In this document: one piece after another, positions 9,537 through 12,511 of the stretch | How positions within the stretch are numbered: position 1 is the first letter of the stretch | How the letters are laid out: every line of letters starts with the position of its first letter | Assembly (NCBI RefSeq): GCF_900104925.1 | Contig: NZ_LT629735.1 | Coordinates: 1,644,291-1,708,290, forward strand | Source of the DNA: Opitutus sp. GAS368 | Lineage (GTDB): Bacteria; Verrucomicrobiota; Verrucomicrobiia; Opitutales; Opitutaceae | Reading direction: 5' to 3' | Length of the DNA: 64,000 nucleotides | Program-made: the position numbers and the translations under genes | Notes under the pieces: model-generated | The model's database searches: none | Told to the model about the DNA's origin: nothing | What the model saw: the letters and a program-made list of their open reading frames with translations, nothing else

Positions 9537-9661
9537 CTGAAAAGCTGAACGGCTGAATATCTTCATCCTTCCCCCAAAACGAAAGTGCGCACCCGCTTCA
9601 ATCGCCTGCCGTCCCGCCTGACTGGCTTCAGCCCTTCAGCCCTTCAGCCTTTCAGCCTTTC
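9537..9661. repeat. inverted array of CTGAANNN octamer repeats between atpA and atpG
   Basis: The left arm (9537-9560) reads as three 8-nt units CTGAAAAG, CTGAACGG, CTGAATAT. The right arm (9626-9661) read on the minus strand is four or five units of GCTGAAAG/GCTGAAGG. The interior is about 65 bp without an ORF. The same octamer arrays flank the S23-type ORF between atpG and atpD, so this looks like an empty or shortened version of that element. Confidence 0.75.
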
Positions 9662-9668
9662 GTAATCC

Positions 9669-10544
9669 ATGGCCTCCACCCGCGACATCCGCCGGCGCAT
9701 CAAGTCGGTCAAGAACACCCGCCAGATCACCAAGGCGATGGAGCTCGTCGCCGCGTCGAAGATGAAGAAGGCGCAGTCGGCCGCCCTCGCGGGCCGGCCC
9801 TACGCCCAGCTGATGGCCGACATGCTCGCCGCGCTCGCCGGTCGCGTCGAAAACATCTTCGAGCATCCCCTGATCGCCAAGCGCGAGGTGAAGACCCGCG
9901 GCATCCTGGTGGTTTCGACCGACAAGGGCCTGTGCGGTCCGCTCAACGCCAACCTCTTCAAGCTCGTCACCGAGATCAAGACGCCCGCCAAGTATGTGGC
10001 CATCGGCCGCAAGGGCGCGCAGTTCCTCGCCCGCACCAAGCGCGACATCCTCGCCGACTTCACCGTCTCCGACCGCGCGGCGTTCAACGAGGTGAAGGTC
10101 GTCGTCGAGTTCATGGTGAAGCTGTTCCTCGAGGGCACGATCGACACCGTCGAGGTCATCTACCCGCGCTACAAGAACACCCTCGTGCAGGAGGCCATCA
10201 TCCGCCCGGTGCTCCCGCTGACCAACGTCCGCGAGTTCATCGCGCAGAACCGCACCGGCGCCGACGGGGTGAAGTTCACCGACGACCGCGACATGCTGTT
10301 CGAGCCGGATGTGAAGTCCGTGCTCGAGGCCCTGCTGCCGTTCTACGTCAACCGCTACATCTACCAGCTCGTCCTCTCCGCCAAGGCCTCCGAGCAGAGC
10401 GCCCGCATGGTCGCGATGAAGACCGCCAAGGACAACGCCACCAAGCTCCTCGGCGACCTCACGCTGGAATACAACAAGGCCCGCCAGGCGGGCATCACCC
10501 AGGAAATTCTCGAGATCGCGGCCGCCGCCTTCTCCGCCACGTAA
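9669..10544 (+). CDS. atpG: F1Fo ATP synthase subunit gamma
   Basis: 291 aa, standard length. It is the central rotor shaft. The N-terminal coiled coil begins with the conserved STRDIRRRIKSVKNTRQITK and KAMELVAASKMKKAQ region; the C-terminal helix contains SEQSARMVAMKTAKDNA and the terminal EILEIAAAAFS segment. Upstream and downstream spacers (136 and 450 bp) are both occupied by octamer-repeat elements. This is unusual inside an operon whose other spacers are under 80 bp. Confidence 0.97.
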   Translation: MASTRDIRRRIKSVKNTRQITKAMELVAASKMKKAQSAALAGRPYAQLMADMLAALAGRVENIFEHPLIAKREVKTRGILVVSTDKGLCGPLNANLFKLVTEIKTPAKYVAIGRKGAQFLARTKRDILADFTVSDRAAFNEVKVVVEFMVKLFLEGTIDTVEVIYPRYKNTLVQEAIIRPVLPLTNVREFIAQNRTGADGVKFTDDRDMLFEPDVKSVLEALLPFYVNRYIYQLVLSAKASEQSARMVAMKTAKDNATKLLGDLTLEYNKARQAGITQEILEIAAAAFSAT

Positions 10545-10553
10545 AGGCCGGAT

Positions 10554-10988
10554 AACTGAAGGACTGAAAAGCTGAAACGGGCCAATGAAAAACCAATGTT
10601 CCATCAACACGGAGACCTGCGAGACCGCACGCGCGAGTTTGCGCGCCGGATCGCCCGTGCTTGCCGGACACTTCCCGGACGGGACAACGTCGCCCGCGTG
10701 TGGGGCGACCAGCTTCTTCGTGCCGGCGGCTCCGTCGGCGCAAACTATCGCGAAGCGCAACGTGGTCGGTCGCGCGCGGAATACCGTTCCAAGCTCGGCG
10801 ACTGCCTTCGTGAAGCCGATGAATCGTTGTTCTGGATGGAGCTCCTCGAGCTTGAGGGCTGTTTCAAGCCCGCGCTTATCGGCCCGCTCAAGCAGGAAGC
10901 CGGCGAGCTTGTCGCCATCTTTGTCACCCTTCTCAAATAACCCGCTGAAGTATTTCAGCTATTCAGCCATTCAGTCTTTCAGCCCTTC
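10554..10988. mobile_element. S23-type element: inverted CTGAANNN arrays enclosing a four-helix-bundle ORF
   Basis: The left arm at 10554-10580 contains CTGAAGGA, CTGAAAAG, CTGAAACGG. The right arm at 10951-10988, read on the minus strand, contains CTGAAAGA, CTGAATGG, CTGAATAG, CTGAAATA. Between them is one complete ORF of the S23/IVS-encoded family. The structure (inverted terminal arrays, single cargo gene, insertion between two ATP synthase genes) suggests a mobile or formerly mobile unit. No transposase is present, so mobilisation would have to be in trans. Family relations are inferred from pattern. Confidence 0.6.
10596..10940 (+). CDS. four-helix-bundle protein (S23 / 23S rRNA IVS-encoded family)
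   Basis: 114 aa. The family pattern is clear: an N-terminal helix with FARRIARACRTLP, then VWGDQLLRAGGSVGANYREA, RSRAEYRSKLGDCLREADESLFWMELLE. Members occur in 23S rRNA intervening sequences, as stand-alone genes and, as Avd, in diversity-generating retroelements; most have no known function and are small basic oligomers thought to bind nucleic acid. An overlapping frame starting at 10585 is longer but low-complexity and is a shadow. It lies in the sense direction inside the ATP synthase operon, so it is presumably co-transcribed with atpG and atpD. Confidence 0.88.
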   Translation: MFHQHGDLRDRTREFARRIARACRTLPGRDNVARVWGDQLLRAGGSVGANYREAQRGRSRAEYRSKLGDCLREADESLFWMELLELEGCFKPALIGPLKQEAGELVAIFVTLLK

Positions 10989-10994
10989 CTCCCC

Positions 10995-12416
10995 ATGAGC
11001 AATACCGGCAAAATCGTCCAAGTCATCGGCGCCGTCGTCGACGTGCAGTTCGCCGAGAACTCCATCCCGCCCATCTACCAGGCGCTGACCATCAGCTTCA
11101 CCGTCTCCGGCAAGAAAGAGCTCCTGACGCTCGAGGTGCAGCAGCACCTCGGCGCCGGCGTGGCCCGGGCCATCGCCATGTCCTCCTCCGAGGGTCTCGT
11201 GCGCGGCATGGAGGTCGTCGACACGGGCGCCCCGATCACTGTCCCCGTGGGCGACTGCGTGCTCGGCCGCATCTTCGACGTCACCGGCAACGCCGTGGAC
11301 GGCAAGGGCCCGGTCAATTTCACCAAACGCTACCCGATCCACCGCCCGGCTCCCTCGCTGACCGACCAGAATACCAAGGCCGAGATCCTCGAGACCGGCA
11401 TCAAGGTCATCGACCTCATCTGCCCCTTCATCAAGGGCGGCAAGGCCGGCGCCTTCGGCGGCGCCGGCGTCGGCAAGACCGTCGTCATTCTCGAGCTCAT
11501 CAACAACATCGCCAAGGCGCACGGCGGCTACTCCGTGTTCGCGGGCGTCGGCGAGCGTTCCCGCGAGGGCAACGACCTTTACCACGAGATGTCCGAGGCC
11601 GGCGTCATCAACCAGAAGGACCTCAGCAAGTCCAAGGTCGCGCTGGTCTACGGCCAGATGAACGAGCCCCCGGGTGCCCGTATGCGCGTCGCGCTCTCGG
11701 CCCTCGCGATGACCGAGTATTTCCGCGACGAGAAAAACCAGGACGTGCTTCTCTTCGTCGACAACATCTTCCGCTTCTCGCAGGCCGGCTCCGAGGTGTC
11801 CGCGCTCCTCGGCCGCTCGCCGTCGGCCGTCGGTTACCAGCCGACGCTCGCCAACGAGATGGGCTTACTCCAGGAGCGCATCACCTCGACGAAGAAGGGC
11901 TCCATCACCTCCGTGCAGGCCGTCTACGTGCCCGCCGACGATCTGACCGACCCCGCGCCGGCCAACACGTTCGCGCACCTTGACTCCACGATCGTGCTCG
12001 AGCGCTCCATCGCCGAGCTCGGCATTTATCCCGCGGTCGATCCGCTCGCTTCCGTGTCGAAGGCCCTCCAGCCCGACATCGTCGGCGAGGAGCACTACAA
12101 GGTCGCCCGCGAGGTGCAGCGCGTCCTCCAGCGCTACAAGGATCTTCAGGACATCATCGCGATCCTCGGCCTCGACGAGCTCTCCCCCGAGGACAAGCTC
12201 ATGGTCTACCGCGCCCGCAAGATCCAGCGCCTCCTCTCGCAGCCGTTCGCGGTCGCCGAGGTGTTCACCGGCACGCCGGGCAAATACGTTCCCGTCAAGG
12301 AGACCGTCCGCGGCTTCAAGATGATTCTCGACGGCGAGCTCGATCACGTGGCCGAGGGTGACTTCTACATGAAGGGCGGCATCGACGAGGTCATCGCCAC
12401 TTCTGCGAAGAAATAA
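10995..12416 (+). CDS. atpD: F1Fo ATP synthase subunit beta
   Basis: 473 aa catalytic subunit. Walker [10 protein letters not shown] is near residue 157, the catalytic [11 protein letters not shown] follows, Walker B is [12 protein letters not shown], and the DELSEED-region equivalent is [17 protein letters not shown]. It starts 55 bases after the S23-type ORF; the upstream spacer consists of the right-hand repeat array of that element, so the ribosome binding site (CTTCCTCCCC is not purine-rich) is unusual for such a highly expressed gene. Confidence 0.98.
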
Positions 12417-12431
12417 CCCGCGTTCCACGCG

Positions 12432-12511
12432 AAGTAACAGGTAACAAGTTCCAAGTAACAAGAGCCCAAGCCATCAATCCTGATACTTGATCCTTGTCAC
12501 TTAATCCTTCC
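12432..12511. repeat. inverted short-unit repeat array between atpD and atpC (AAGTAACA type)
   Basis: The left side reads AAGTAACAG, GTAACAAGT, then CCAAGTAACAAG. The right side on the minus strand reads AAGTGACAAGG and ATCAAGTATCAGG. The sequence is different from the CTGAA arrays, but the layout is the same: 9-nt-like direct units, inverted on the two sides of an 80-bp spacer without an ORF. It is the third such array in this operon. Confidence 0.55.

Follow-up and report, generated by a model that had tools for sequence, protein, structure and literature searches.

The window described here is a stretch of 64,000 nucleotides (nt) from the genome of Opitutus sp. GAS368 (contig NZ_LT629735.1, positions 1,644,291 to 1,708,290), and it contains an ATP synthase (atp) operon in which the three spacers atpA-atpG, atpG-atpD and atpD-atpC all hold inward-facing arrays of a short repeated unit (Table 1). 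The atpA-atpG element is built from the 8-nt unit CTGAANNN, repeated with period 8, and its two arms enclose 68 nt without an open reading frame (ORF). The same 8-nt unit makes up the arms of the atpG-atpD element, 77% complementary over 35 nt, which surround an intact gene of the S23 family, also named 23S_rRNA_IVP or four helix bundle. The third element, in atpD-atpC, is weaker and ORF-less, with the unit AAGTAAC and period 7. A preliminary description of this DNA had already proposed inverted arrays in all three spacers, a complete S23-family gene within the middle one and a unit common to two spacers, one with and one without the ORF, and in all these points it was right. The unit length of 8-9 nt that it gave holds for two of the spacers (8 nt), the third having a 7-nt unit of another family.

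Table 1. Genes and array arms of the atp operon, in positions of the window.
Feature	Position	Strand	Basis
atpA	8000..9532	+	ORF call, sequence and synteny
Left arm, CTGAANNN array, atpA-atpG spacer, overlapping the atpA stop codon	9530..9557	+	
Interior of the ORF-less element, no likeness to other compared interiors	9558..9625	none	
Right arm, inverse CTGAANNN array, atpA-atpG spacer	9626..9661	-	
atpG	9669..10544	+	ORF call
Left arm, CTGAANNN array, atpG-atpD spacer	10555..10577	+	
S23 / 23S_rRNA_IVP (four helix bundle) gene, intact	10596..10940	+	
Right arm, inverse CTGAANNN array, atpG-atpD spacer	10954..10988	-	
atpD	10995..12416	+	ORF call
Left arm, AAGTAAC array (7 nt), atpD-atpC spacer	about 12432..12463	+	
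Right arm, degenerate inverse of AAGTAAC, atpD-atpC spacer	about 12485..12509	-	
atpC	12518..12925	+	ORF call

The arms were found by an array-pair detector in two of the spacers, and those of atpD-atpC, which the detector missed, by eye and in the RNA fold. All three elements can pair their arms in RNA, with predicted folds at z-scores of -3.65 (S23 element), -4.5 (atpA-atpG) and -3.8 (atpD-atpC), and no dinucleotide shuffle reached the folding of the native sequence (0 of 100 for the S23 element, 0 of 200 for the other two spacers). Over 464 kb of sequence from the same genome (the window and 20 stretches of 20 kb each) the detector returned 14 inverted pairs, some with a common arm, and 10 direct ones, nine of these with period 9. 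Direct pairs of this period are a typical yield of GC-rich coding sequence, which may be their source here. Farther along the window (31190-31290) there is another ORF-less inverted array, with a 9-nt unit of the CACGGAATA type, a predicted hairpin of very high stability (z-score -7.2) and divergent flanks. Similar arrays also occur in the loci L122 (two), L123 and L129, and no S23 gene with such a unit was seen.

The S23 ORF of the window encodes 114 amino acids and lies above the curated cut-offs of both PF05635 (E 5e-11, 43.2 bits vs. 33.8) and TIGR02436 (E 7.8e-18, 64.7 bits vs. 24). Its AlphaFold2 (AF2) model, with a predicted local distance difference test (pLDDT) value of 94, has four helices arranged as a four-helix bundle like those of 2rld and 2gsc, the closest solved folds (TM-scores to the query of 0.83-0.88 and 0.80-0.85), for which five chains are listed in each entry. 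The next matches are structures of Avd, the protein of diversity-generating retroelements, either within retroelement particles (8ub7, TM-score 0.77) or alone (4dwl, 0.73), with Foldseek E values of 0.09-0.1. The atp S23 is under purifying selection where measured, as nonsynonymous (dN) and synonymous (dS) divergence amount to 0.05 and 0.58 against the genus genome G016 and to 0.04 and 0.49 against G014, i.e., a dN/dS of about 0.08-0.09 in both.

The association of S23 genes with inverted arrays is real, strong, and general. Six places in the GAS368 genome match PF05635 (L001-L006, L004 being that of the window and L006 falling under the family cut-off). Judged by eye, L001-L005 are each flanked by inverted arrays with a unit of their own, while at the weak match L006 only one flank carries an array. 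The objection raised in the preliminary description, that S23 genes elsewhere in this genome might lack such flanks, fails because four of the five other places lie between inverted arrays. TIGR02436 genes occur in 20 of 21 genomes of the genus, at 112 places, from which 103 distinct cores were recovered and 100 with both flanks kept (short matches and contig edges were dropped). The left flank of 120 nt was compared with the right flank in inverse orientation, and a score of at least 15 was taken as strong. Strong inverted arms were found for 77 of these 100 genes, while in the controls this score was reached by 18 of 4000 random positions, 4 of 377 ORFs of 90-160 amino acids other than S23, 2 of 100 direct comparisons at the same loci and 28 of 2000 swapped flanks. 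A first score over 230 nt was dropped, its swapped pairs being inflated by orthologous sites.

The pattern extends well beyond the genus. A cross-phylum sample was made of the best 80 of 576 confirmed relatives, 76 of which had both flanks and were used; it represents canonical IVP-type S23 only, because a narrower profile was used for the scan. By their titles these loci come from Bacteroidetes, Acidobacteria, Chloroflexi, Desulfobacterales, Planctomycetes, Verrucomicrobia, Vreelandella, and others. A score of 15 was reached by 54 of the 76 in inverted and by 11 in direct comparison, and the real score exceeded all 30 shuffles of the same locus in 60 inverted vs. 18 direct cases. Altogether, the S23/IVP gene lies between such arms in most of the loci examined. 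The arms, about 31 nt long or some four unit copies, fit closely between the neighboring genes. Over 37 S23 sites, the median distance is 0 nt between the stop codon upstream and the start of the left arm (-25 to 51), and 7 nt between the end of the right arm and the start codon downstream (-13 to 139). The upstream neighbor was co-directional in 33 of these sites and both neighbors in 24. In Vreelandella (L272, G021:C12:25636-26289) about 650 bp of perfect AGTTGTG units begin some 10 nt after the S23 gene, with AGTTGTG arrays also elsewhere in that genome, and in L187 (G002) and L192 (GAS368) a distant S23-like gene stands beside arrays of a CCTATNGG-like unit, the opposite side of L192 showing no array.

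Each S23 clade has its specific unit, which diverges together with the protein. On a tree of the 100 S23 proteins, members of a clade have a unit in common although they lie at different genomic sites, e.g., AGTAGCG at sites 32, 33, and 38 or GACGGAGGACAGA at sites 27, 36, and 42. When each strict site cluster was reduced to a single representative (26 of the 31 have arms), unit similarity was correlated with protein identity (Mantel r 0.548, p 0.0002, 5000 permutations), the same test with the reversed unit giving r -0.08. Mean unit similarity was 16.2 in the 8 pairs above 60% identity vs. 5.4 in the 188 pairs below 25%. Among S23 genes of the family, at least two CTGAA cores are present in the left arm of 10 of the 12 that are 58-100% identical to that of the window, the exceptions being L301 (one core) and L303 (none), and the spacing is 7 nt in L305 and partly in L306. 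None of the 18 loci at 47-55% has this core in the left arm, where other units or weak arms are found instead; the line at 58% was set after this switch of unit had been seen. The order of unit variants common to both arms gave a weak result (mean z 1.83 over 81 loci), because each arm had beforehand been cut back to the part that matched best.

Elements with the same unit and no ORF are dispersed in the same genome. The genome-wide search that had been suggested for the window unit, made with three consecutive copies of CTGAANNN, gave 30 matches in GAS368 (G000), 29 in G003, 21 in G007, 5 in G010, 4 in G013, 93 in G014 and 87 in G016, that is in 7 of the 21 genus genomes, and the reversed pattern had none in any of them. 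These seven are the genomes that show the atp S23 or its remnant (G013); in G005 and G017, without CTGAANNN matches, no atpG was found and the atp spacers remained unseen. This distribution does not simply track kinship, since G008, G015, and G006, at 82-86% AtpG identity, have neither the arrays nor the atp S23 and G014 and G010, at 73-75%, have both. Over 200 genomes of the family, CTGAANNN arrays were found in all 12 that have an S23 at least 58% identical to that of the window, and in 11 of them beyond the S23 locus. Of the 21 genus genomes, 13 have AGTAGCG arrays (a cognate S23 was seen in 3), 7 have AAGTAAC arrays (cognate S23 in 3) and 11 have CCAAANN arrays (cognate S23 in 4), the last with a noisy control. 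Pooling the four units, arrays are present in 16 of 17 cases with a cognate S23 and in 16 of 67 without, CCAAANN being counted only from 5 matches up. As the reversed CCAAANN pattern matched in 6 of 21 genomes, this line was set once the counts were known.

Adjacent CTGAA arrays face inward in 52 cases, outward in 4 and in the same direction in 1 (overlapping loci counted), and they form 28 distinct inward elements, 22 with a short interior. These 22 interiors are unrelated, with a mean score of 6.9 over 231 pairs vs. 6.4 for shuffled sequences. Just two pairs score 14 or more, both at a single site that is orthologous by the likeness of its flanks, an ORF-less CTGAANNN element common to G007 (L158), GAS368 (L163) and G014 (L204), which is useful for dating turnover. 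Because the interior at this one site is recognizable across species, the missing likeness between sites is the more telling. As the interiors are unrelated between sites, ORF-less elements are not simple deletion copies, and copying in the manner of miniature inverted-repeat transposable elements (MITEs), whose copies have internal sequence in common, is unlikely. The idea of full and empty versions of one element therefore applies to the shared unit and not to the interiors; a single real deletion remnant exists (G013).

A comparison of the atp spacers in related species, GAS368 included and with the inserts labeled by eye, bore out the expectation that occupancy would vary, and so do the place and the unit of the inserts. 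Among 19 genomes, the atpA-atpG spacer holds S23 with CTGAANNN in three, a deletion remnant in one, the ORF-less CTGAANNN element in one (GAS368), ORF-less AGTAGCG in two, an ATCGTAA-type insert in four and an unclear one in one, and is short in seven. The atpG-atpD spacer, also in 19 genomes, holds S23 with CTGAANNN in three and measures 27-39 nt in 15; the remaining one (L154, G002) is a 72-nt spacer with another insert, a short palindrome (AGCCTGCTTGCAGGC) unlike the arrays. Finally, of 18 atpD-atpC spacers, four are clean at 6-7 nt, two hold AAGTAAC, five a degenerate AAGTAAC-like array, two AGTAGCG, two CTGAANNN, one a TAAGG-type array and two other or unclear inserts. Since unit families differ between species at one and the same spot, separate arrivals are the simplest explanation.

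The S23 gene itself is an old resident of the atp operon found in different spacers. All 12 close relatives in the family (at least 58% identity), under eight genus labels, lie beside atp genes, six in atpA-atpG, five in atpG-atpD and one after atpD. To say that the operon had been invaded, as was done at first, is misleading for the S23 copy, given these atp-resident relatives and the purifying selection. The atp operon of G027 (L304) contains two S23 genes, one 71% identical to that of the window and another, upstream of atpG at 2841-3179, 46% identical. As a separate observation, AtpG of G010 and G014 are 94% identical to each other and 72-75% to seven other compared genomes, to which their AtpA and AtpD are still at least 89% identical. 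An exchange of atpG is suggested by this difference.

Taken together, the data point to a widespread and poorly recognized family of elements related to the intervening sequences (IVS) of 23S ribosomal RNA (rRNA). We read the atp spacer elements as transcribed inverted-array elements, each unit cognate to an S23 protein, and as the spacer counterpart of the 23S rRNA IVS, an explanation to which we give an even chance. Each member would consist of two inward-facing arrays of a 7-9-nt unit, here held in atp spacers, and the S23 protein, with its five-chain solved relatives and Avd-like fold, may recognize its unit along the arms. For the CTGAANNN elements of GAS368 this protein would be the atpG-atpD copy; a cognate S23 for the AAGTAAC element of atpD-atpC was not seen among the six S23 places of the genome. 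The element would be carried in the transcript as a hairpin that RNase III cuts, or that is tolerated, as in 23S rRNA, which might leave little harm to the host, and S23 could help the arrays to spread or persist by means of host enzymes. As the interiors differ, it is probable that each arm is set down or copied by itself, and not the entire element in the manner of a transposon.

Like the 23S rRNA IVS, the window element has an S23-family ORF within complementary termini that fold into a stem, and a sporadic distribution. According to the excerpts of PMC4990558, the IVS of Coxiella has GACAGAT heptamers (two or three depending on the strain, plus a degenerate one) just before its S23p ORF, a 28-bp terminal stem and cleavage by RNase III in vitro, and it may serve as a precedent for the cutting or tolerance of a transcribed hairpin. 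Unlike it, the window element lies between atpG and atpD and not in rRNA, one genome may hold many ORF-less copies with the same unit, and unit and protein diverge together. Insertions with IVP ORFs are described in both 16S and 23S rRNA of candidate phyla radiation (CPR) bacteria (excerpts of PMC11270868), and four helix bundle genes are among the strain-specific genes of an Arthrospira (excerpts of PMC8700078).

Several results weigh against this explanation. Arrays of CTGAANNN are also present in 38 of the 188 family genomes without a close S23, some of them very rich in arrays (115 matches in G023, 76 in G071, 71 in G045), so that a close S23 predicts arrays and arrays exist without one. 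The contrast with the 12 of 12 that have a close S23 speaks for the link (Fisher 2e-8, reversed pattern in 4 of 200), but the Fisher value, uncorrected for relatedness, exaggerates the independence of these genomes. In G142 the sole CTGAANNN match lies in the S23 locus itself. Similarly, of the 18 genus genomes where a cognate S23 for AGTAGCG was not seen, 10 have arrays of this unit, and CCAAANN arrays are found in G014 without a close S23. AGTAGCG, CCAAANN, and part of CTGAANNN thus contradict a strict dependence of arrays on S23. Of the 100 genus S23 genes, 23 have no strong arms within 120 nt, and 22 of the 76 cross-phylum loci stay under a score of 15. The likeness to Avd is one of fold only, at Foldseek E values of 0.09 or worse. 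Counting mismatches between the arms on the S23-sense strand, A.C exceeds G.U (116 vs. 77 in 81 genus S23 loci, 88 vs. 38 in 57 others), and selection for a hairpin in the sense RNA, expected to favor G.U, failed with the opposite skew. Finally, no recent transfer of the atp S23 was seen, nor a recent jump, because its dS is not below that of the atp genes in the compared pairs.

The main rival is that S23 is a post-transcriptional regulator, with the dispersed arrays as operators controlling translation or decay between operon genes and its own arms serving for autoregulation, a somewhat unlikely but serious alternative. The genes on both sides are co-directional for all 24 ORF-less elements tested (22 CTGAA and 2 AGTAGCG, with orthologous sites counted separately), vs. 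18 of 29 baseline stretches. The purifying selection on S23, the permanence of the CTGAANNN-type S23 in atp across its eight genus labels and the element kept at one orthologous site in three species also speak for it. There is also a parallel in the excerpts of PMC4679880, where TAACTGA is described as an intergenic heptamer repeat of Beggiatoaceae and cyanobacteria, in sets nearly all direct and mostly upstream of a start codon, and where MacGregor discusses a possible translational role of these repeats together with a repeat-binding protein. However, both occupancy and unit family vary between species at the same atp spacers, which would be odd in a conserved regulon, and the unit itself changes from clade to clade.

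The elements could instead be DNA-level transposons, with the arms as terminal inverted repeats, S23 as an accessory gene and the ORF-less copies as MITE-like derivatives moved in trans. The inverted ends, the coexistence of S23-bearing and ORF-less copies, the filled and clean 6-7 nt spacers and the link of arrays to a cognate S23 would all agree with this. In the repetitive extragenic palindromes with their associated tyrosine transposases (REP/RAYT) and in MITEs, too, non-coding repeats are scattered between genes and linked to a gene for a protein. The window elements resemble these in that respect and differ in having tandem short units vs. one palindrome, no recognized transposase and interiors that are not shared, the single orthologous site apart. 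S23 is the only gene recognized in the element, its close relatives are found in atp alone, without a recent move, and no target-site duplication was evident by eye between clean and filled spacers, although these are too short to show one clearly. We consider this explanation unlikely.

An RNA-based route of mobility through a reverse transcriptase, which the preliminary description had raised as speculation from the four-helix-bundle relatives, is very improbable. It draws on the fold shared with Avd, a likeness of PF05635 already pointed out in PMC10053308, according to whose excerpts Avd serves retrohoming by reverse transcriptase. Unlike in those retroelements, no match to the reverse transcriptase family RVT_1 (PF00078) exists in the complete GAS368 genome, which thereby lacks this mark of a diversity-generating retroelement, or in 17 of the 21 genus genomes, among them the array-rich G014 and G007. 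The family is matched in G003, G015, G016, and G017, so that, among the seven CTGAANNN-bearing genomes, it is present in two (G003 and G016). Least credible of all is that the arrays are plain slippage repeats with S23 genes there by chance, because, although the units are tandem and arrays exist without S23, the inward pairing, the locus-specific inverse arms and a co-divergence far above controls refute it, unless the controls are biased.

Similar repeats outside this family suggest a wider frame. In Xanthomonas, the excerpts of PMC4692102 give 70 and 75 convergent pairs of GGGAATC in two genomes, and the arrays described here are like these and the TAACTGA repeats in being intergenic and of short unit, often as inverted pairs in Xanthomonas. 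By term search, PMC4679880 mentions neither S23 nor a four helix and PMC4692102 no four helix (S23 was not searched for there). A survey of CRISPR-like systems has "23S rRNA IVP" among its figure-legend abbreviations, a mention that may or may not concern such arrays (PMC10910872). A general tie of S23 genes to inverted short-unit arrays was not found in the open-licence literature; subscription papers were mostly outside this search, and the link may be known. Tentatively, and with rather less confidence than for the atp elements, S23/IVP across phyla could be the protein half of one system, in which inverted arms carry a 7-9-nt unit that is specific to the clade and read by an S23 pentamer. 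The dispersed short-repeat arrays (including TAACTGA and GGGAATC) and the termini of the 23S rRNA IVS would be its arrays, with arms laid unit by unit at new sites and no fixed core.

S23/IVP is a common protein family of unknown function, and heptamer repeats have been a long-noted puzzle in several bacterial groups. A specific link from protein clade to unit, testable and open to a direct binding assay, would make the rRNA IVS one case of a broad class. If the arms are indeed laid unit by unit, the mode of spread would be unlike transposition or retrohoming, and unusual for a sequence in that arrays would arise with no core being copied.

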